Shown: positions 5,977 to 39,385 of the stretch, in pieces | Layout of the letters: each line of letters begins with the position of its first letter | How positions within the stretch are numbered: position 1 is the stretch's first letter | Origin: Actinomycetota bacterium | GTDB taxonomy: Bacteria; Actinomycetota; Aquicultoria; Aquicultorales; Aquicultoraceae | DNA: 39,385 bases | Assembly: GCA_014859275.1 (NCBI GenBank) | Contig: JACUUO010000008.1 | Coordinates: 1 to 39,385, forward strand | Direction of reading: 5' to 3' | Notes under the pieces: model-generated | The model's input: the letters and a program-made list of their open reading frames with translations, nothing else | What the model was told of the DNA's origin: nothing | Databases searched by the model: none | Made by a program: the position numbers and the translations under genes

Positions 5977-6045
5977 AGAAAAACCTCCAGATATATCGTA
6001 GCCATTAGCTGTCAGCGATCGGCTATCAGCTATCAGCTAAGAGCT

Positions 6046-6072
6046 GTAGGTGCGTTCCCCGAACGCACCTAT
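6046..6072. repeat. Hairpin between eno and pyk
   Basis: A 12-bp inverted repeat (TAGGTGCGTTC / GAACGCACCTA around CCCC) lies in the 139-base eno-pyk gap, with no T-run after it on either strand. Beside it, 6000-6045 is built of imperfect AGCTATCAGC-type units also seen near 13270, 33970 and 39310. The hairpin may slow polymerase or protect the eno 3' end; that is inference. Confidence 0.6.
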
Positions 6073-6115
6073 AAAATCCACCGTTCTGATACAACGCTGT
6101 CTAATTACTACCCAT

Positions 6116-9476: not shown

Positions 9477-12400
9477 TTACCTCGCTTTCTGGCTTATTTC
9501 CACTCTCAGATTGAGCGCACCCATTATATCACTAAACAAAGCCAGCAGGAAAGCTATTATTTCGGTATTCTCAAGCTTTGAGATTAGTAAATACTGTCTT
9601 TCCGAGCGGAAGGATAAATTATTGTACGACCTGGCTAGGGACATCTCTTGATGTTTAGCTAAGCGAATGGGTGATACTTTAACCTTACCACCTTGATAGC
9701 TTATCTGAGTTATGCCCAAATTTATCGATAACAGGCGGGTCTTTGCAATGCCAAGCAACTCAACCACAGGATCAGGGAGTGTACCGTAACGATCCGTAAG
9801 CTCGAGCATGACGTCGTCTATATCAGAAAAACTGCGAGATAGAATTATCTTCTTGTAGGCCTCTATTCGCAGGTTCTCCTCAGTTATATATGAATCTGGC
9901 AGATATGCATTAACGGGAAGGTCAATCTTTACTTCCAGCGGATCAACTATCGGTTTTCCTTCCAGCTCTTCAATCGCTTCTCTCAACATCTGGCAGTATA
10001 GGTCAAAACCGACAGCCGACATGTGCCCGCTCTGCTCGGGGCCGAGCAGATTCCCCGCCCCTCTTATCTCAAGGTCGCGCAGCGCTATTTTTACTCCCGA
10101 ACCGAGTTCGGTAAAATCGCTTATGGTCTTGAGTCTCTCGAAGGCCTGTGCAGTTAATAATATCTGTGGAGAGAAGAAGAAATATGCATAAGCGCGTTGA
10201 CCGCTTCTGCCGACCCTTCCCCTTAGCTGGTACAACTGCGCCAGGCCAAGATTCTCAGCCCTGTCTACGATTAGCGTGTTTACCCTCGGGATATCGATCC
10301 CCGACTCAATAATTGTCGTGCATATCAATACATCATACTCACCCTTTAAAAAGGCGAGCATTACCTTCTCCAGCTGATGTTCGCTCATCTGACCGTGCGC
10401 AACCGCAACCCTCGCTTCAGGAATTATCGTTTTGATACGCGTCGCCATCCGGCTGATGGTTTCAACCCGGTTGTGCACATAGTAGATCTGCCCTCCACGA
10501 CCAAGTTCACGCCTTATGGCCTGGGCCATCATCTCCTCATCATACCTGCCAACATGTGTAACTATAGGATGGCGATCTTCTGGCGGAGTCTCGATCACCG
10601 ACATATCGCGCACACCAGCAAGCGACATTTGAAGCGTCCTCGGAATCGGAGTTGCACTCAAGGTGAGCGTATCCGCAGTTTTTTTAAAGTGCCTCATTTT
10701 TTCTTTATCGTTAACCCCGAAGCGCTGCTCCTCATCAATGATAACAAGACCGAGGTTAAACGGTTTAACGTCGCTCTGAAGAAGCCTGTGTGTTCCTATT
10801 AAAACATCCAGACTCCCCTCATTAAGACGCGCTATTATCTCCCTCTGGCGGATTCTGGATTTAAAGCGGCTGACCATATCAATATTTACCGGGAAGGGGG
10901 AGAGGCGCTCGTTAAATGTAGTGAAGTGCTGCTGGGCGAGGATTGTGGTAGGCACAAGCACCAGCACCTGCTTGCCATCCATAACCGCTTTAAACGTCGC
11001 CCGCACTGCAACCTCGGTCTTCCCATAACCGACGTCTCCGCAGATCAGTCTATCCATAGGCTTAACGCCTTCCATATCCCTTTTAACATCATTTATCGCT
11101 GCCAGCTGGTCGGACGTCTCCTCGTACTGGAAAGAGTCCTCCAACTCCTTCTGCCAGGGAGAATCGGGCGAGAAAGAGAATCCATTGGCCTTTGCCCTCT
11201 CCGCATAGAGCGATAGCAGATCGTAGGCCACCTTTTTTGCCGAAGCTTTTGCCTTTCTCTTAGCCTTCAACCACTCAGAGCCGCCGAGCCTGGATACAGT
11301 CGGTACATCACCTGCAGACCCAATGTACCTGGTAATGCGATTGAGTTGATCGGTCGGTACGAAAAGACGATCCGAGCCAGCGTACTCGAGTACGGCGTAA
11401 TCACGGATTACGCCGGCCACCTCTCGCCTCTTTAAGCCCCCATAGATTGCGATGCCATGCGAACTGTGGACGACATAATCGCCGATCTTAAGATCGGCAA
11501 CATCGGAGATCGCCCGCCCGCCGCCACTGCTTCGAACCTTCTGCGGGTCGCTGTGCCTACCGAAGATATCGTAAAACGATATTACTGCAATACCGATATC
11601 GGGACTGACAAAACCACCGCTTAAATTACCGATAACCAGATTAACCCCTTCCCAGATTTCCGCATCTGTTGAATAGGGAATCTTCCAATCGGATAATAGT
11701 TCGGCTATTTGCATCAACTGGCCTTCATCGTGTAGGGAAATAACAACTTTTAAATCAAGGCTCGTGCAATCCTTGATCATATCTATAAGCTGCTCGACTC
11801 TCCCAACCATAGGCTGAACCGGCGATGCCTGGAAGTTTATGGTATCCTTTGTCACACCTCCGATAGAGGTCAATTCTATTTTTGCGCCATCCCTTTTAAG
11901 TATTCCTGCAGGATTTTTAAAATATGGACTTGGCGGTTTAACTATGACCTGATGGGTTATTAGATGATCGACATATGCCTGTTGCTGCTCAAAATAGCGT
12001 TTTGCCGATTGCTCAGTCTCCTCCGGTTCATCGACGACTAAAATGTAGCCGGCGGGTAGATAATCAAGGATTGTTGAGGTTCCTTCGTAGAGGAAGGGAA
12101 GATACTTTTCAATGCCCTCAAAGTATTGCATCTCCTTTAGCCTGCCGATCTCCTCCTCAAGCCACGGTTTATTAAGGCTTGAGAGTCGATACACAGCCCT
12201 AGCGGTATTCTCTTCAGTTAGAACGACCTGCCTGCAGCCGTATATTTTTACTTCTCTAAGCTGATCAACCGATCTCTGGCTGGATACGCCGAAAGTGCGA
12301 ATTGAATCAATCTCATCGCCGAAAAATTCGATGCGGATGGGAAGCTCCGCATCTGATGAGAATACGTCGATTATACCGCCCCTTAGACCGAATTGTCCCG

Positions 12401-12905
12401 GACCTTCAACAAGAGGAACCCTCATATATCCCATGGAGACGAGCTCTGAGGCCAATTCGTATAAATCTATCGCATCACCGATCTTTAACCTTAACGGGCG
12501 ATATATCGCCTCTGAAACCGGAGGCACAATGCGCATGGATGCCTGAACAGTTGTTACCCAGGCGCACGCACGCTCGGAAGCCATACTATCAAGCGTCGAG
12601 AATCTCCTCCCAACAGAAGCAGGGCTCGGCGAAAGAGAATCATAGAGCATCGTCTCAGCCTCTGGAAAAAGATATGCTTCCACCGAGAATGCTCGCAGAT
12701 CGGCGACCAGACGGCTCGCCCTCTCAGAGCTGAACGTGATGATAAGAAGCGGTCGCTTTACACTTGAGTAAAGCGACGCCAGAATATACGGGCGTACGCA
12801 CGAGCTAACCAAAACGATCGGCTTTCTACCATCATTTAGCTCCCCGAGCAATCTATTATATTTTTCTTCTTTGCAAATTAGTGCAAAGGTTTTCTCTAAT
12901 CCCAT
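9477..12905 (-). CDS. mfd: Transcription-repair coupling factor Mfd
   Basis: The 1142-residue ATP-dependent translocase displaces RNA polymerase stalled at DNA damage and recruits UvrA. The N-terminal UvrB-like module includes PLVEGPGQFGLRGGIIDVFS. The CarD-like RNA-polymerase interaction domain is at VADLKIGDYVVHSSHGIAIY. The RecG-like motor shows Walker A GDVGYGKTEVA, DEEQ in LVIIDEEQRFGV, LSATPIPRTLQMSL and motif VI QLRGRVGRSGQRAYAYFF. The TRCF C-terminal domain follows. I place the start at the ATG at 12905, which has GAGGCGA at 11-17 bases upstream. An ATG nine codons earlier has no clear ribosome-binding site. Length is normal for the family. Confidence 0.96.
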   Translation of the reverse strand: MGLEKTFALICKEEKYNRLLGELNDGRKPIVLVSSCVRPYILASLYSSVKRPLLIITFSSERASRLVADLRAFSVEAYLFPEAETMLYDSLSPSPASVGRRFSTLDSMASERACAWVTTVQASMRIVPPVSEAIYRPLRLKIGDAIDLYELASELVSMGYMRVPLVEGPGQFGLRGGIIDVFSSDAELPIRIEFFGDEIDSIRTFGVSSQRSVDQLREVKIYGCRQVVLTEENTARAVYRLSSLNKPWLEEEIGRLKEMQYFEGIEKYLPFLYEGTSTILDYLPAGYILVVDEPEETEQSAKRYFEQQQAYVDHLITHQVIVKPPSPYFKNPAGILKRDGAKIELTSIGGVTKDTINFQASPVQPMVGRVEQLIDMIKDCTSLDLKVVISLHDEGQLMQIAELLSDWKIPYSTDAEIWEGVNLVIGNLSGGFVSPDIGIAVISFYDIFGRHSDPQKVRSSGGGRAISDVADLKIGDYVVHSSHGIAIYGGLKRREVAGVIRDYAVLEYAGSDRLFVPTDQLNRITRYIGSAGDVPTVSRLGGSEWLKAKRKAKASAKKVAYDLLSLYAERAKANGFSFSPDSPWQKELEDSFQYEETSDQLAAINDVKRDMEGVKPMDRLICGDVGYGKTEVAVRATFKAVMDGKQVLVLVPTTILAQQHFTTFNERLSPFPVNIDMVSRFKSRIRQREIIARLNEGSLDVLIGTHRLLQSDVKPFNLGLVIIDEEQRFGVNDKEKMRHFKKTADTLTLSATPIPRTLQMSLAGVRDMSVIETPPEDRHPIVTHVGRYDEEMMAQAIRRELGRGGQIYYVHNRVETISRMATRIKTIIPEARVAVAHGQMSEHQLEKVMLAFLKGEYDVLICTTIIESGIDIPRVNTLIVDRAENLGLAQLYQLRGRVGRSGQRAYAYFFFSPQILLTAQAFERLKTISDFTELGSGVKIALRDLEIRGAGNLLGPEQSGHMSAVGFDLYCQMLREAIEELEGKPIVDPLEVKIDLPVNAYLPDSYITEENLRIEAYKKIILSRSFSDIDDVMLELTDRYGTLPDPVVELLGIAKTRLLSINLGITQISYQGGKVKVSPIRLAKHQEMSLARSYNNLSFRSERQYLLISKLENTEIIAFLLALFSDIMGALNLRVEISQKAR

Positions 12906-13146
12906 AGTTATCGCCTCAAATACGCTGAGCATGCCTAAAAGGCCCCGGCATACCGCCCAGGCCCCCTGTAATGATTATTTAGCGCGAATGTGTTCTTTAT
13001 CGCACATTTATTGATATCGGTAAATACCGGCGCTTTATCTTAATGGTATCAGTTTGGTGCCGCAGAATGTAGTCCCCGGTCCCCAGTCTTCGGTCTCCGG
13101 TCTTGATGTGCCAACTGCCAATGTGCTGCAGTCCTAACAGTCATTT

Positions 13147-13169
13147 GTAGTTGCCCCATTTATGGGGCG
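13147..13169. repeat. Extragenic palindrome GTAGTTG-GCCCCATTTATGGGGC, copy 1
   Basis: A 16-base palindrome GCCCCATTTATGGGGC preceded by GTAGTT. Five copies occur in the window, all in intergenic DNA: here, 22106-22124, 22138-22160, 39109-39131 and 39163-39185. Confidence 0.9.
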
Positions 13170-13228
13170 ATCCCTACTAGTCCTCGGTCTCCGGTCGCCA
13201 GTCAGTGAGGGTAAGAGATGAGGGTATT

Positions 13229-13270
13229 GAGATTCTTCGGTCGCTACCGCTCCTATAAGAATGACAATAT
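13229..13270. repeat. Dispersed module GAGATTCTTCGGTCGCT, copy 1 of 2
   Basis: GAGATTCTTCGGTCGCT, then CCGCTCC and AGAATGACA. A near-identical copy lies at 39269-39312, with the same flanking modules around it. Confidence 0.85.
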
Positions 13271-13447
13271 AGCCATCAACCCTCAGCTATCAGCCATCAG
13301 CATGTGGGTATGAGATGAGGGTATCCACCCTCCTCTAGCCTCACATCAAGGGGGAGGGAACAATTTAGAGCACTCCCATCAGAAATGAGGAATATTTATG
13401 GGCCTGTAAGATACGTTTAAGGGAGTGCACCCTACCAGCTTCGTTAT

Positions 13448-13469
13448 CAGGGCTAAAGCCCTGAGCTAC
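13448..13469. repeat. Palindrome CAGGGCTAAAGCCCTG + AGCTAC, copy 1
   Basis: A 16-base palindromic unit followed by AGCTAC, repeated exactly at 13524-13545. The layout (GC arm, AT core, GC arm, then AGCTAC) resembles the GCCCCAT family with a different arm sequence. Confidence 0.85.
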
Positions 13470-13523
13470 GATTCTGTTCTTTTCTTCTGGCTCCTGGATT
13501 CTGGCTTCTGCCTTCTCCAGTAT

Positions 13524-13545
13524 CAGGGCTAAAGCCCTGAGCTAC
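13524..13545. repeat. Palindrome CAGGGCTAAAGCCCTG + AGCTAC, copy 2
   Basis: Exact second copy of the unit at 13448-13469, in the same orientation and 76 bases downstream. Confidence 0.85.
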
Positions 13546-13726
13546 AGTGACTACCCACATCTCTTGCTTCCACTTGGCTATTGGCTACTCCCACACTTAT
13601 TTCCCCCATCGACATTCGTACCTTGGCACTTTAAGACAGTACCCACATCCCTTACCTACATCAACCGGTAACTGCAGCACTGGGCAACTATTCCCACGTC
13701 TCTTACCCACGTTCCGATTCACCTAT

Positions 13727-14302
13727 TCACCAATCTTCCCTGCGGCGGTTGAATTCGTTCATCGCCCTGGCGACGCCCTCCACGATGATGTAAAACACCG
13801 CATCCCCTGCTTCATCGATCGAGAGCGCTATTTCTTCCCATTCGCTCTTGCTGAAAGGGCTGAGAACATAATCAGCTGGGTCTTGACGGCCAGGTGGCCT
13901 CCCGATACCGACACGAACCCTCATGAAGTTTTCGCTGGATATCTGGCCCATGATAGACCTTATACCCCCATGGCCACCACTGCCGCCATTCTGCCGTATC
14001 CTAATCTGGCCGGGCTCTAGATCCAGGTCGTCATAGATGACTATCAGTCGCTCCGGGGCAGCCTCTTGCGCCCTTAAAAGCTTCTTTGCCACAAGGCCGC
14101 TGTTGTTCATATAGGTAAGCGGCTCGACCAGTATAACCCTCTCCTGGACAATCATACCTTCGCCCCATCGCATCAACCTGCTTCTCTTGCTAAGCGATAT
14201 GTCCAGCGCTTGGGCTAGCCTCTCCACAACCATAAAGCCAACATTGTGGCGCGTCTTCTCGTATCTAACTCCTGGATTACCCAATCCCATCACTATGTAC
14301 AT
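13727..14302 (-). CDS. pth: Peptidyl-tRNA hydrolase
   Basis: The 191-residue enzyme releases peptides from prematurely dropped peptidyl-tRNA. GLGNPGVRYEKTRHNVGFMV carries Asn9 and catalytic His19. TYMNNSG and IVIYDDLDLEPG carry the other active-site Asn and Asp. In the GGHNG loop of E. coli Pth (Asn114) this protein has GGHGG, so that Asn is Gly. The loop varies among Gram-positives and I do not take this as loss of function. The gene is the last of the glmU-prs-rplY-pth group, the order found in Bacillus (where pth is spoVC). Confidence 0.96.
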   Translation of the reverse strand: MYIVMGLGNPGVRYEKTRHNVGFMVVERLAQALDISLSKRSRLMRWGEGMIVQERVILVEPLTYMNNSGLVAKKLLRAQEAAPERLIVIYDDLDLEPGQIRIRQNGGSGGHGGIRSIMGQISSENFMRVRVGIGRPPGRQDPADYVLSPFSKSEWEEIALSIDEAGDAVFYIIVEGVARAMNEFNRRREDW

Positions 14303-21499: not shown

Positions 21500-21787
21500 T
21501 TATATGAGCCAGGGGAGCAGATTCTCGCCATTGTCGGGATTTGAGAGTTCAACCGTCTTAGTCAAGACATCCGCATAGCTATAGGATACCCTGCGGCAAC
21601 GATTCCGCTTTTCCTCAACCTTAACAACAAATAAATTAGGGTGCGTCTCCTCCAGTACACCCTCTCTTTCGATGATCTTGCAGCGCCCCATATTGGCCTT
21701 GAGGCGCATTTTCTCGCCAACAAACTCGTCAAGCTGCTTGCGAATCCGGTCAACGACCTCCACTTGCAGCAATTGACTAACTGCCAT
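21500..21787 (-). CDS. veg: Veg family protein
   Basis: The 95-residue protein matches Veg: VDRIRKQLDEFVGEKMRLKA, NMGRCKIIEREGVLEETHPN, LFVVKV and RVSYSYADVLTKTVEL. In Bacillus subtilis Veg stimulates biofilm formation by affecting the SinR pathway, and its gene is strongly expressed. No sin genes are seen here, so the role is open. The gene has a near-consensus promoter (21821-21849) and precedes ispE, as in Firmicutes. Veg is unusual in Actinobacteria. Confidence 0.93.
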   Translation of the reverse strand: MAVSQLLQVEVVDRIRKQLDEFVGEKMRLKANMGRCKIIEREGVLEETHPNLFVVKVEEKRNRCRRVSYSYADVLTKTVELSNPDNGENLLPWLI

Positions 21788-21849: not shown

Positions 21850-22105
21850 GTTTACTCCGTGCCACGATCAAATGCAAGTACTACTGTAGAAACTATTCAC
21901 CTTATCCAAAACTGCAAGTAGATCGAGTGCATTTTGCAGTCACCTTTACTATTCGCCCTGGTAATGCGATTGAGCTTCGGATAATAGTGAATAAATACAT
22001 ATCGTATTGACGACAGCTTTATCTATATAGATAACGTGCAAAACAAATCCTTCTTATTCCCTTATTTTTCGAAAAATATCCACACGGATTTTACAACTCC
22101 TGCAA

Positions 22106-22124
22106 TTGCCCCATTTATGGGGCG
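22106..22124. repeat. Extragenic palindrome GCCCCATTTATGGGGC, copy 2
   Basis: The full 16-base palindrome with TT before it; the leading GTAG is replaced by GCAA. Confidence 0.88.
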
Positions 22125-22137
22125 TTTCTTCCATCTT

Positions 22138-22189
22138 GTAGTTGCCCCATTTATGGGGCGTGCTTTCGCTCGATAAATCGAGCAACTAC
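22138..22189. repeat. Double-palindrome unit (copy 3 of GCCCCAT plus an inverted partner)
   Basis: GTAGTTG + GCCCCATTTATGGGGC (22138-22160) is followed by a short linker and GCTCGATAAATCGAGC + AACTAC (22168-22189). The outer GTAGTTG and CAACTAC are inverted repeats, so the whole 52-base unit is a larger palindrome containing two smaller ones. This resembles paired REP elements (BIME). Confidence 0.85.
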
Positions 22190-22206
22190 ATTTATATCTT
22201 TATACT

Positions 22207-22266
22207 CCCTCACCCTACACCCTCTCCCAGAGGGAGAGGGGCAGAGTATGATATCTATATACTGCC
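22207..22266. repeat. Dispersed repeat, copy 2 of 2 (other at 1399-1458)
   Basis: CTCACCCTACACCCTCTCCC, AGAGGGAG and TATCTATATACTGCC in the same order and orientation as at 1399-1458. It lies directly at the 3' end of rsmA. Confidence 0.8.
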
Positions 22267-22272
22267 TCACCC

Positions 22273-23133
22273 TCAAGAAAGAGGCTCCGAAAGAGCGTTG
22301 GCAATTGCCGTGAACTCCTCGATAGAGAGCGTCTCTCCACGCCGGCGTGGGTCAATTCCGGCAGCGGTCAAGGCGCGGGTGATTTCATCTAAGCTAAAAC
22401 CCAGCTCCGGGCTTCCGTGAAGGGCATTTTTTATCGTCTTCCTCCTCTGCCAAAACGCGCCTTTTATAACCCCAAAGAATAGCTCCTTATCCGCCACAAA
22501 TACCCGCGGCTCCGGCAGCCGGCGCATTTTAACTACCGCTGAGCTTACTTCAGGCGGGGGAATAAAAACTCTTCTTGAGACTGTGGCGACTCTATCAACA
22601 TCGCAATAAAACTGGGCTTTTACCGAAAATGACCCGTACTCTCTAGTCCCCGGACGGGCGACGATGCGGTCGGCAACCTCTTTTTGGATCATAACCACAT
22701 AGAGTGAAAGTTCATCAAATCTATCTAAGTAACTGGCTAAGAGCGGCGTAGCGATCTGATATGGGAGATTCGATACGAGTTTGTTCGGGACTGGAAGATT
22801 ATCCGGCATACTTCTTAGATCGACCTTGAGCGCATCGGTGAAAACAACCCTTGCATTACCATAATCTCGAAGCGTATATTCTAAAACCGGTTTTAACCTG
22901 CGATCAAGTTCAATCGCTATAACCATGCCAGCATTTTCTGCAAGAGCTTGCGTCAAGGTACCTATCCCCGGACCGACCTCAACCACCACATCACCACTGG
23001 TGAGCGATGCCGCATCGATGATCTTATTTAGGATGTTTTGGTCGATTAAAAAATGTTGCCCCAGGCCCTTTTCAAGCCTGAGGCCAAATTTTTTAACTAC
23101 TTCAAGCGTTGCCTGCGGCGTTGCTAGCGTCAC
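22273..23133 (-). CDS. rsmA: 16S rRNA adenine(1518/1519)-N6-dimethyltransferase
   Basis: The 286-residue enzyme (KsgA) dimethylates two adjacent adenosines in the 3' hairpin of 16S rRNA during small-subunit maturation. LEKGLGQHFLIDQNILNKI opens the SAM domain, VVEVGPGIGTLTQAL (about 50-64) is SAM motif I, and LVSNLPYQIATPLL is the catalytic N-L-P-Y motif. The C-terminal helical domain includes FWQRRKTIKNAL. In Bacillus rnmV (primase-like 5S maturase) lies between this gene and yabE; here only 31 bases separate them, so rnmV is missing. Confidence 0.96.
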   Translation of the reverse strand: MTLATPQATLEVVKKFGLRLEKGLGQHFLIDQNILNKIIDAASLTSGDVVVEVGPGIGTLTQALAENAGMVIAIELDRRLKPVLEYTLRDYGNARVVFTDALKVDLRSMPDNLPVPNKLVSNLPYQIATPLLASYLDRFDELSLYVVMIQKEVADRIVARPGTREYGSFSVKAQFYCDVDRVATVSRRVFIPPPEVSSAVVKMRRLPEPRVFVADKELFFGVIKGAFWQRRKTIKNALHGSPELGFSLDEITRALTAAGIDPRRRGETLSIEEFTAIANALSEPLS

Positions 23134-36091: not shown

Positions 36092-38563
36092 CTATCCGGC
36101 CACTTTAATTTGCGGTGCCTTAAACCTCCTGAGCCTAAGCGAGTTCGATACTACCGAGACCGAGCTTAGGGCCATTGCCCCAGCCGCATATATCGGATCG
36201 AGCCTGATACCGAGCAGGGGATAGAGAGCACCCGCCGCAACCGGAATAAGCACTATATTATAGATGAAAGCCCAGAAAAGATTCTGATAGATCGTCCGGA
36301 GCGTCTTTCGGCTCAAGGCGATCGAAGTCACCAGGCCTTGCAGGTTACCACTGATAAGCGTGATATCAGATGCCTCGATGGCAACGTCTGTTCCGGTACC
36401 GATTGCGATGCCGATATCGGACTGTGCAAGCGCTGGAGCATCGTTTATGCCATCGCCAACCATTGCAACCACCTTTCCTTCTTCCTGAAGGCGCCTTATC
36501 TCGCGCGACTTATCTGCCGGGAGAACCTCAGCAAGTACCCGGTCTATACCGGCTTGTCCTGCAATGGCCGCGGCCGTTTTCTCATTATCGCCGGTTATCA
36601 TGATGACCTCAAGGCCCATCCCCCGAAGGCGCTCGACTGCCCTCTTTGAATTCGGCTTGAGGACATCGGCCACGGCTATAATGCCTTTAACACCCGAACC
36701 AACCGCGATATACATAGGCGTTTTACCCTCTTCAGAAAGACTTATTGCCCGCTCCGCCATCCTGTCTAACGCGATGGTTCGCTCCTGCATTAAGCGCAGG
36801 TTGCCCATTAGAACTGTCCAGCCATCTATGTTTGCGCCTATACCAAGGCCGGTAAAGGATTCAAAATCATGCGGCTCGGCAAGCGATATTTCCAGTTCCT
36901 TCGCCCTGGTTACAATCGCCTCTCCTAGGGGATGCTCCGAGTCCCTTTCGGCAGATGCGGCAAGCTTTAATATCTCTTCCTCGCTGAAGCCGTTGCCGCC
37001 GATGATATCGGTCACCACTGGCTTTCCAAGTGTGAGCGTCCCAGTCTTGTCCAGCACGATGGTATCTACCTTATGTGCGTTCTCAAGTGCCTGTGCATCC
37101 TTGATGAGGATGCCATTCTGCGCGCCCTGTCCTGTGCCTACCATGATCGCCGTCGGCGTTGCAAGCCCAAGCGAGCACGGGCAGGCGATTATAAGAACCG
37201 CGACAAAATTAAGAATTGCCACCGTAAAGGCCGGCTCGGGGCCGAAGAAGAACCAGACAACAAACGTGAGCACAGCGATAGCTATAACCATCGGGACGAA
37301 ATAGCTCGCGACTACATCCGCTAGACGCTGGATCGGCGCCTTTGATCCCTGCGCCTCATCGACAAGTTTCACTATTTGGGCAAGGGCCGTCTCGCTCCCG
37401 ACCTTGGTCGCCCTAAATTTAAACGTCCCGGTCTTATTGATGGTCGCGCCGATTACCTTATCGCCATCGCGCTTCTCAACTGGTATGCTCTCGCCGGTTA
37501 TCATCGATTCGTCCACCGATGAATACCCCTCAACAACAATACCATCGACCGGCACTTTCTCGCCGGGGCGGACCACAACGATGTCTCCGACTAAAATACT
37601 TTCAATAGGCACATCTACTTCTTGACCATCCCTTATCACCCGGCCAGTCTTGGCCTGAAGCCCAAGTAGCTTTTTGATGGCATCTGAAGCCCTTCCCTTC
37701 GCCTTTGCCTCCAGGTACCTGCCAAATAGTATCAGGGTAATAATTACCGCGGACGTATCATAATAGACGCCGGGCATAATTCCTTGCGCTTCAAATACGC
37801 CCGGGAAGAAGGTCGCAATCACACCAATCACACTATATAGGTATGCGGCCGATGTGCCGACGGCCACCAGCGTATTCATATCGGTGGTACCATGCTTTGC
37901 CGTAAGGTAAGCGCCCCGGTAAAATCTCCAGCCTGCCCAGAACTGGACGGGAGTGGCAAGGGCAAGAAGTACGACAAACCGAATCTGCGTTGTCTGCGTT
38001 GGGATTAGTATGGGGGCCGGAATGAACTTGTGCATGCTTCCTATCATTACCAGTGCGGAGAGCATAGCAGCAACTATAAGGCGAGATCGTATCTCATCGA
38101 TCTCACTTCTCGGCTTTACAACCCCATCGACTACTGCAGTCTCGCCGGAATCTCTCACCTCATAGCCCGCATCTCTAACCGCCTGTTTTAGTTGCTGAGA
38201 GCTCGTCAGCCCTGGTATATATTTGACTACCCCCTTCTCGGTAGCCAAATTTACGCTTGCTGATATAGCGCCGTCAACCTTAAGAAGAGCTATCTCAACT
38301 CTTCTTACACAGGAAGCGCACGTCATGCCGCCAATTGGTATGGTAAGCTCTTCGGCCGGCACTTCATAGCCCGAGGCCTCAACCGCTTTAACGAGATCGG
38401 TAATGGTCGCCTTGCCCCTCTCAACCTCAATGGTCGCTTTCTGGCTTACCAGGCTCACATTTACATTTTTTACACCTTTAACGCGTTCAAGCGCCGTTTC
38501 CACGCGGCGCACACACGATGCTCACGTCATCCCAGTGATGGGAAGAACAAATCTTTCTGTCAC
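36092..38563 (-). CDS. copA: Cu+-exporting P1B-type ATPase CopA with in-frame UGA at codon 14 (candidate selenoprotein)
   Basis: The 823-residue pump exports Cu+ across the membrane. Two N-terminal heavy-metal domains lie at about 4-68 and 72-138. The second has an intact GMTCASC (Cys82, Cys85). TGES (356-359), the metal-site CPC (461-463), DKTG with the phosphorylated Asp505, HP (544-545) and GDGIND (703-708) are intact. FIYN and MALSS in the last helices mark the Cu+ subtype. The start is GTG at 38563, with AGGAG upstream. Codon 14, the first Cys of the first metal site, is UGA (38522-38524), and reading continues in frame as ASCVRRVE. A candidate SECIS hairpin follows. Otherwise translation would have to restart after the UGA, with no ribosome-binding site. 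csoR is divergent. Confidence 0.9.
38491..38510 (-). promoter_or_regulatory. Candidate bacterial SECIS hairpin in copA
   Basis: GCGCCG and CGGCGC form a perfect 6-bp stem with the 8-base loop CGTGGAAA on the minus strand. The stem starts 12 bases after the UGA and the loop 18 bases after it. The second loop base is G. Distance, stem and loop sizes and the early G all fit published bacterial SECIS criteria, which are loose. Confidence 0.5.
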
Positions 38564-38613
38564 TTATGCGTCTCCTTTTAAGGGGACGTTGGTTAACTTA
38601 TAACTACAAAAAA

Positions 38614-38638
38614 TATGCCCCCTGCCCCCTATAGGTAT
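38614..38638. promoter_or_regulatory. G-tract element in the copA-csoR intergenic region, possible CsoR operator
   Basis: TATGCCCCCTGCCCCCTATAGGTAT carries two C5 tracts (G5 on the copA strand) with flanking ATA/TAT. CsoR operators are pseudo-palindromes of G-tract, AT-rich centre and C-tract. The resemblance is partial. Confidence 0.4.
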
Positions 38639-38671
38639 TTATTAGATTAACATCGTGCAACACTAGAAGTC

Positions 38672-38698
38672 AATCTACCAGCACATAACAGGTAGATT
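38672..38698. promoter_or_regulatory. Inverted repeat between copA and csoR
   Basis: AATCTACC (38672-38679) and GGTAGATT (38691-38698) are perfect inverted repeats around 11 bases, just upstream of the csoR -35. It could be an operator or a short hairpin in the copA leader. Confidence 0.4.
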
Positions 38699-38710
38699 CA
38701 GGCGTAATTG

Positions 38711-38739
38711 TTGACACTCCGACTAAATCCTAAGATAAT
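38711..38739 (+). promoter_or_regulatory. Promoter of csoR
   Basis: TTGACA (38711-38716), a 17-base spacer and GATAAT (38734-38739) match the sigma-A consensus at 11 of 12 positions. GGGGTATAT directly follows and could belong to a CsoR site overlapping the start of transcription, implying autoregulation. Confidence 0.85.
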
Positions 38740-38772
38740 AGGGGTATATGGCATATATAAAGGGGTGAAGAT

Positions 38773-39048
38773 ATGGCTTCATATGCCACCGATAAAGAGA
38801 AGATCTTATCGAGGTTAAAGCGCATTGAGGGTCAACTCCGCGGTATCCAGCGGATGGTCAAAGACGATAAGTACTGCGTTGATATCCTTGTCCAGATATC
38901 TTCCGTCCTGGGAGCAACTCAGAGGGTTGGGCTCATCCTCCTTGATGATCACATAAAAGGCTGTGTCAGAAGCGCTTTAGTAGACGGAGGTGGAGACGCC
39001 TCGATCCAGGAACTCATGGACGTAATCCAGCGCTTCGTTAAAACGTAA
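38773..39048 (+). CDS. csoR: Copper-sensing transcriptional repressor CsoR
   Basis: The 91-residue all-helical repressor has the Cu(I) triad Cys35 (KYCVDIL), His60 and Cys64 (DDHIKGCVR), in the C-H-C spacing of true copper sensors rather than RcnR or FrmR. KEKILSRLKRIEGQLRGIQRM is the DNA-facing first helix. Cu(I) binding releases operator DNA. It is divergent from copA, so it most likely controls copA and itself. The start ATG has AGGGG upstream. Confidence 0.95.
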   Translation: MASYATDKEKILSRLKRIEGQLRGIQRMVKDDKYCVDILVQISSVLGATQRVGLILLDDHIKGCVRSALVDGGGDASIQELMDVIQRFVKT

Positions 39049-39108
39049 TCACACTGTTTAACATACTGTCGTTAAACATGCTGCGGTGCTCCGTGCCAAC
39101 AATTATCC

Positions 39109-39131
39109 GTAGTTGCCCCATTCATGGGGCG
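39109..39131. repeat. Extragenic palindrome GTAGTTG-GCCCCAT, copy 4
   Basis: GTAGTTGCCCCATTCATGGG + GCG. One base of the central TTTA differs from the other copies (TTCA). Confidence 0.88.
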
Positions 39132-39162
39132 TCTTAAAGTGCTGCTGTGCTGCAGTGCCAAT

Positions 39163-39185
39163 GTAGTTGCCCCATTTATGGGGCG
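39163..39185. repeat. Extragenic palindrome GTAGTTG-GCCCCAT, copy 5
   Basis: Identical over 23 bases to copies 1 and 3. It lies 54 bases after copy 4. Confidence 0.9.
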
Positions 39186-39268
39186 AACTCTATTAGTCCT
39201 CGGTCCTCAGTCTCCGGTCCTGATGTGCCAAAGTGCTGCAGTTAAGTGTAAGCATAAGGTGTAAGTCT

Positions 39269-39312
39269 GAGATTCTTCGGTCGCTGCCGCTCCCTCAGAA
39301 TGACAGAATAGC
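39269..39312. repeat. Dispersed module GAGATTCTTCGGTCGCT, copy 2 of 2
   Basis: GAGATTCTTCGGTCGCT, then CCGCTCC and AGAATGACA, as at 13229-13270, with only scattered differences. Confidence 0.85.
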
Positions 39313-39385
39313 TATTAGCTAGTAGTTAGCAGTTAGTAGTTCATAGAGTAGTACCCACATCTCTTACCCACATTGATACGCCCCA

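Follow-up and report, generated by a model that had tools for sequence, protein, structure and literature searches.

The palindromes in the 39,385-nt stretch of DNA analysed here (the window) are very probably GTAG-family REPs that were spread by one clade of REP-associated tyrosine transposases (RAYTs), with no matching RAYT found in the window's own genome; this is the best explanation of the data as a whole. The results presented here reveal a repeat family, covariation of its arms, the pairing of unlike copies, and linkage of the same repeats to RAYT genes in other genomes. From these patterns we infer cleavage, a reason for the unlike pairing, loss of the RAYT, and also the movement assumed by an earlier note on this DNA, which had proposed REP/BIME behaviour with copies spread by a RAYT. 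That proposal is supported by the number of copies, the covariation, the unlike pairs, the GTAG head and a RAYT clade found at five places.

Repeats in the window

The hairpin GCCCCATTTATGGGGC, allowing up to three mismatches, gave 10 strand matches at five places in the window, against 0.40 expected, and none of 100 shuffles of the window attained 10. A REP with the sequence GTAGTTGCCCCATTTATGGGGC lies on the plus strand at 13147-13168 (39.7 bits under a covariance model of the family), flanked by an Mfd-like gene (9477-12932) and a peptidyl-tRNA hydrolase gene (13727-14302), both on the minus strand and, like the genes named below, identified with Pfam. The group at 22102-22189 begins with a decayed plus-strand copy at 22102-22123 (24.6 bits), in which the head reads GCAATT and the hairpin GCCCCATTTATGGGGC is intact. 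It continues with a head-to-head pair made up of GTAGTTGCCCCATTTATGGGGC, of arm type CCC, at 22138-22159 on the plus strand (39.7 bits), the 8-nt spacer GTGCTTTC at 22160-22167, and the inverted partner GTAGTTGCTCGATTTATCGAGC, of arm type TCG, at 22168-22189 on the minus strand (39.1 bits). This group is flanked by a VEG gene (21500-21787) and a ribosomal RNA adenine dimethylase gene (22273-23133), both on the minus strand, and a 92-aa open frame (22142-22420, plus strand) overlaps the pair. Near the end of the window, GTAGTTGCCCCATTCATGGGGC, with a TTCA loop and hence an ATTCAT core, lies at 39109-39130 (plus strand, 37.6 bits) in tandem with GTAGTTGCCCCATTTATGGGGC at 39163-39184 (plus strand, 39.7 bits), 54 nt start to start; these copies have an E1-E2 ATPase gene on one side and the end of the window on the other. 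The covariance model matched these six REPs at E values of at most 2.1e-5, with the next match at E 0.39, and Rfam at gathering scores returned only the tRNA over the whole window.

The earlier note had described five palindromes preceded by GTAGTT and always located between genes. The five places are real. GTAGTT followed by GCCCCATTTATGGGGC is literally present in only three of them (13147, 22138 and 39163), since the 39109 copy has the ATTCAT core and the 22102 copy is preceded by GCAATT. By our count four palindromes lie between Pfam-matched genes, and those at 39109-39184 are bordered by such a gene on one side only. The paired form was described exactly. What had been taken for a core kept by the partner, ATAAAT, is ATTTAT read on the opposite strand, and the loop, with its orientation relative to GTAG, is therefore the same in both members of the pair.

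Other repeats occur in the window. A second REP family, GTAGCTCAGGGCTTTAGCCCTGA, has two minus-strand copies at 13447-13470 and 13523-13546; a hairpin of this kind stands on both sides of a 172-aa RAYT in genome G010 (locus L267) and about 1.2 kb from a RAYT on contig C121 of the window's own genome, G000 (locus L030). A 60-nt repeat containing CCTCTCCCAGAGGGAG is present at 1399-1458 and 22207-22266 (97% identical), its second copy beginning 17 nt after the REP pair. The intergenic tracts 12935-13725 and 38520-39385 have short repeats in common besides the REPs (families D4, D7, D8 and D11). Outside 5980-6110, intergenic tracts show only weak heptad periodicity.

A high-copy intergenic family in the host genome

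The family follows the pattern GTAGTTGC-NNN-ATT(T/C)AT-NNN-GC. The assembly of the host genome (2.83 Mb in 299 contigs, completeness given as 98.2%) contains 124 copies of GTAGTTGCNNNATTYATNNNGC and 50 exact 16-mers; the reversed controls gave 0 in both cases. The covariance model, built from 25 chosen copies (alignment A2, comprising 22 of the 39 distinct copies and three variants from the RAYT loci L120 and L185 described below), gave 152 matches at E up to 1. The absence of further copies genome-wide, which would have spoken against the earlier reading, was thus not observed. Only 3 of 53 own copies in the loci retrieved fall inside frames of at least 150 aa, compared with 7255 of 12200 random positions. 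High copy number and a mostly intergenic position are as in GTAG-type REPs, and so is the GTAG tetranucleotide 5' of the palindrome, which has decayed in one of the five window palindromes.

In the host genome, REP and spacer together form tandem arrays, at 44-47 nt start to start, at C63:28655-28811 and on C129, C245 and C284, and the array units have flanks in common in changing combinations. The dinucleotide CT, four bases 3' of the stem, was found in 19 of 45 distinct right flanks from the host genome, 2 of 55 from Planctomycetota loci and 0 of 16 from the relative G009; because the host-genome flanks have array units in common, nothing is claimed from these counts regarding a cleavage dinucleotide. 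Several REPs of the window type in the host genome stand directly 3' of a sequence ending in CCTGTGTCCGCCC or TTTATCTCCGCCC. A third REP type, GTAGGGGCGGAC-...-GTCCGCC in locus L004, seems to have a similar 3' end, indicating that REPs of different families have been joined.

The pattern is present in 6 of 60 genomes comprising the window's own and its relatives (G000, 124; G009, 97; G017, 42; G002, 11; G007, 8; G038, 1) and in 8 of 75 genomes of a Planctomycetota class, that of G061 (34, 19, 18, 6, 6, 4, 1 and 1 copies). The window's genome and Planctomycetota genomes have entire 22-mers in common.

The stem is conserved as a fold

Three arm pairs of the stem are free to vary, and all three are perfectly paired in 165 of 202 copies from six genomes; 2000 shuffles gave a mean of 44.4 and at most 62. 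The set comprised G000 (65 copies), G002 (11), G007 (8), G009 (66 of 97), G060 (18) and G061 (34), with G017 left out; the G000 rows are 22-base copies with an ATTYAT core, and the pattern allows no loop other than TTTA or TTCA. Among the 39 distinct copies, 14 are perfectly paired (shuffled mean 3.95, largest 10), and in the host genome alone 60 of 65 copies are. The fully paired arm types are CCC, CCG, CCA, TCG, TCC, TCA, CTG, CTC, CTA and TTG. The claim that arms change with compensation, the fold rather than the sequence being conserved, is therefore borne out, and a lack of arm covariation, which would have refuted it, was not observed. A palindrome kept by compensating changes is a further property of GTAG-type REPs, seen also on the 25 rows of A2, a chosen set whose covariation test leans towards pairing.

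When the loop was left free, TTTA or TTCA stood between A and T in 123 of 128 head-strand hairpins from the retrieved loci, most of which had been fetched with the core fixed. The other five read ATCCAT, ATTCGT, CTTTAG (twice) and GCATGC. The count started from 130 distinct hairpins, two of which were second-strand readings.

Head-to-head copies have unlike arms

All 32 cases of neighbouring copies arranged head to head within 60 nt (in G000, G009, G060, G061, G071 and G109; 7.06 alike pairs expected) combine unlike arms, although many of these pairs are copies of one unit and the 32 cases are thus not independent. Only 1 of 5000 within-genome shuffles had zero alike head-to-head pairs. Tandem neighbours have like arms in 15 of 27 cases. 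The analysis covered these six genomes and G002; G000 supplied 83 copies, from hairpin rows that include three 21-base and two longer matches, together with five window copies. Second-strand readings of one palindrome were left out, as were C50:1559, C141:58 and the decayed copy at 22102; G007, G068 and G069 did not enter since, by eye, no two of their listed copies are within 100 nt.

Ten kinds of head-to-head pair can be told apart by the 5' arm. The CCC:TCG pair of the window recurs on C48, C163 and C179 of the host genome with spacers of 8-9 nt, and CCC is paired with TCG also in G060, G061 and G071. With REPs in inverse orientation, a short spacer and a unit that recurs, the element at 22138-22189 is a two-REP BIME. 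Folded as single-stranded DNA, the pair is predicted to form two hairpins closed by GTAGTT/AACTAC (-12.9 kcal/mol, z -4.97), and its GTAG may be paired in the predicted fold. In a prediction for 22095-22195, the two CCC copies (22108 and 22144) pair with each other, in competition with the single hairpins.

A RAYT clade beside the same REP

The RAYT invoked by the earlier note was found outside the window's genome. Window-type REPs adjoin a RAYT at 5 of 65 distinct places that were scanned or read, in five other genomes and in a single RAYT clade; none was seen beside the 60 other places, with the qualification that decayed hairpins would escape the flank scans, which look for near-perfect ones of GTAG or GGAG type. 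The 65 places comprise 46 and 16 from two flank scans and the loci L185, L187 and L163. Three of the five RAYTs are open frames in the Planctomycetota class (L185, L256 and L258, the last identical with L184), and two are truncated genes in the window's class (L120 and L163). At L120, in G017, the truncated RAYT retains MPNHLHL and WQPNYYEH; eight window-type REPs stand within 1.2 kb of it, on both sides. At L163, in G009, 68 C-terminal residues are left (69% identical) beside decayed REPs. A scan with these two RAYTs over 84,980 species, each represented by one genome, gave five loci, two of which were the queries' own. The other three were L184 (Planctomycetota), L187 and L185 (Planctomycetes), the last an open RAYT frame of 144 codons with the same REPs, and a pair of the window's kind, on both sides. 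At L256 (G068, 75% identity) window-type REPs also stand on both sides, and at L258 (G060, 76% identity) they stand on the 3' side, the frame running into the contig end. By best E-value, G068 and G060 hold the only other close genes in G061's class, and the next genome has 34% identity. The RAYT at L187 (Marinimicrobia, 38% identity) has a different hairpin beside the gene, and its genome has no copy of the REP pattern. A GTAG hairpin, GTAGAAGCGAGGCATGCCTCGC, lies inside the L187 coding frame (L187:3197-3224) without a stop.

In a tree of 24 rows, from which the G009 fragment was left out, a branch with 96/96 support separates the four REP-flanked RAYTs that could be aligned from all other rows, and none of 500 label shuffles was as clustered. 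In all four with a readable 3' end (L185, L256, L258 and L120), the stop codon of the RAYT is the TAG within the GTAG of the downstream REP. The RAYTs at L261 and L263 likewise end in the TAG of a downstream REP's GTAG. Over the two classes (36 and 75 genomes), the clade is present in 5 of the 10 REP-rich genomes (at least six copies) and in 0 of the 101 others. Two fragments were not counted in the clade: one in G025 (65% over 43 aa), with a different GTAG hairpin beside it, and one in G014 (51% over 63 aa), with no hairpin found beside it. Beside the remaining RAYTs there were different GTAG hairpins, or none was detected in the flank scans.

The L185 RAYT matches the solved TnpAREP structure 4er8 (E 9.9e-8) and exceeds the PF01797 cut-off. 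We take its MPNHLHL to be the HUH motif, and WQPNYYEH presumably holds the catalytic tyrosine. For the truncated L120 protein, the best NCBIfam match is NF047646 (REP-associated tyrosine transposase), below the cut-off at 67.8 of 80 bits. A RAYT gene flanked by the same REPs is the arrangement of a REPtron. An IS200/IS605 element would be expected in multiple transposase copies, and among the matches listed G060, G061 and G068 each have one gene at 70% identity or more.

No cognate RAYT found in the host assembly

No cognate RAYT was found in the assembly of the window's genome with either a truncated or an open query, the best match to L185 having 27% identity (E 6.7e-6). The copies are therefore probably left-overs of past activity, and the family is apparently orphaned in this genome. 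A REPtron would also have the cognate RAYT in the same genome, and none was found in this fragmented assembly. Six places in the genome match Y1_Tnp, and several of them have open frames; they were rejected as the cognate RAYT given the lack of window-type REPs in the fetched flanks and their distant sequence, four of the six having been placed in the tree. RAYT-like frames of about 325-360 aa occur on C282 and C121 of the host genome (L028 and L030) and in relatives (L108-L110 and L112-L114). L028 and L030 have weak C-terminal matches to HTH_23 or DnaA C-terminal helix-turn-helix models; the flank scan found GTAG hairpins near L030, L108 and L113 and none near L028, L109, L110 and L114.

It is possible, if rather unlikely, that the organism has the cognate RAYT and that the gene is missing from the assembly. 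At least nine REP matches begin within 40 bases of the first base of a contig, indicating that the assembly, with its many contigs, breaks at these repeats, and a RAYT would be expected between REPs. However, the stated completeness is high, and where the window's class retains traces of the RAYT, in two genomes, the gene is truncated. It is less likely still that the REPs of the host genome were spread in trans by its other RAYTs (for example, the 266-351 aa frames on C209, C282 and C121) and not by a cognate enzyme since lost. Such enzymes are available at the six Y1_Tnp places, and the REPs are uniform in that so few copies have imperfect stems. Yet the fetched flanks of those places hold no window-type REP, frames of like length (159-160 aa and about 325 aa, matched by length and not by orthology) occur in relatives without the REP, and in other lineages the GTAG hairpins beside REP-flanked RAYTs were of other kinds. 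That the palindromes are intrinsic terminators or mRNA-stabilising hairpins, kept for neighbouring genes and not mobile, is highly improbable: the copies do lie between genes and 22107-22124 scores as terminator-like on the plus strand, but this sole plus-strand site would serve neither of the Pfam-matched genes around 22102-22189, both being on the minus strand, the nearest gene end is a 5' end for 13 and a 3' end for 9 of the 22 own copies with both neighbours visible, and the GTAGTT head, the 22-mers identical across to Planctomycetota genomes and the unlike head-to-head pairing would be left unexplained.

Comparison with known systems and a proposed mechanism

The reading as REPs spread by a RAYT is consistent with a characterized system, REPtron Mb of Marinomonas sp. 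MWYL1, which has a group 3 TnpAREP (PMC8266576). The substrate of TnpA_Mb is GTAG, two nucleotides, a 5-bp stem and a TTTA loop; the enzyme needs loop bases 1, 2 and 4 but is indifferent to base 3, and it cleaves less well when the stem has mismatches (PMC8266576). The window family has the same GTAG, two unpaired bases, short perfect stem and TTTA loop with a free third base, some stem changes that preserve pairing are tolerated in the Marinomonas system, and in both an HUH/Y1 enzyme is encoded beside the REPs (PMC8266576). It differs in belonging to other phyla and in a stem longer by one A-T pair, and the likeness is drawn from the REPs, not from enzyme sequences. The natural TTTA and TTCA loops fit the one base that is free in the tested TnpA_Mb enzyme. 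By analogy, the enzyme of the L185 clade would act like TnpA_Mb. E. coli REPs also form pairs in inverse orientation (PMC8266576), and the E. coli TnpAREP 4er8 is a related enzyme; those REPs are longer with a required bulge (PMC8266576), whereas the window family consists of perfect short hairpins.

The GTAG families of Di Nocera et al. 2013 (PMC3733652) share with this one the GTAG tag, complementary stem variants, head-to-head dimers that are heterodimers in most families, several REP families per genome and RAYTs flanked by REPs. The hosts of GTAG repeats given there are Proteobacteria, Cyanobacteria, Chloroflexi and PVC. Neither 'actinobacteri' nor 'attta' is present in the text of that survey outside its Figure 1 consensus table. 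The window family is, as judged against the survey's text, a new family of a known kind, and an identical family may be listed in that table. As cited from a 2018 survey (PMC6006769), only subclass 1.1, of the IS200 type, was reported in Actinobacteridae. Of the 16-mers of six arm and loop types sought in 5.39 million papers, one occurs, in a single paper, a cyanobacterial sRNA study (PMC2190773), and among the matches listed for shorter strings of the family none is a REP paper by its title.

In the mechanism proposed here, a REP consists of GTAG, a two-base spacer, a short perfect stem and a TTTA or TTCA loop, and its single strand would fold into its own hairpin. A RAYT (HUH/Y1) of one clade most likely recognises GTAG plus the loop, and would cleave near the hairpin and spread REPs and BIMEs between genes, copies having since multiplied, presumably, in tandem arrays. 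The stem bases would be free to vary so long as they pair, hence the arm covariation. Head-to-head arms differ most likely because identical partners would form one long hairpin that is unstable or unrecognised. Preference for heterodimers was reported in most GTAG families, with protection from hairpin clearance offered as a thought and no obvious explanation given for their prevalence (PMC3733652). No insertion with a matching empty site was seen, and some of the copies could be due to tandem amplification alone.

Tentatively, the family may have persisted and still multiplied after loss of its RAYT, through growth of tandem arrays or a non-cognate RAYT acting in trans, and the REP-RAYT pair may have crossed between Actinomycetota and Planctomycetota, the REP identical and the enzymes diverged to 56% identity; on that reading the REP would have stayed identical because loop and GTAG are pinned by recognition. 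The repeat family is otherwise ordinary, and its points of interest are the missing RAYT and its two-phylum range, with a REP-RAYT pair common to Actinomycetota and Planctomycetota genomes. Its unlike head-to-head pairs form a clean set that is relevant to the prevalence of REP heterodimers.
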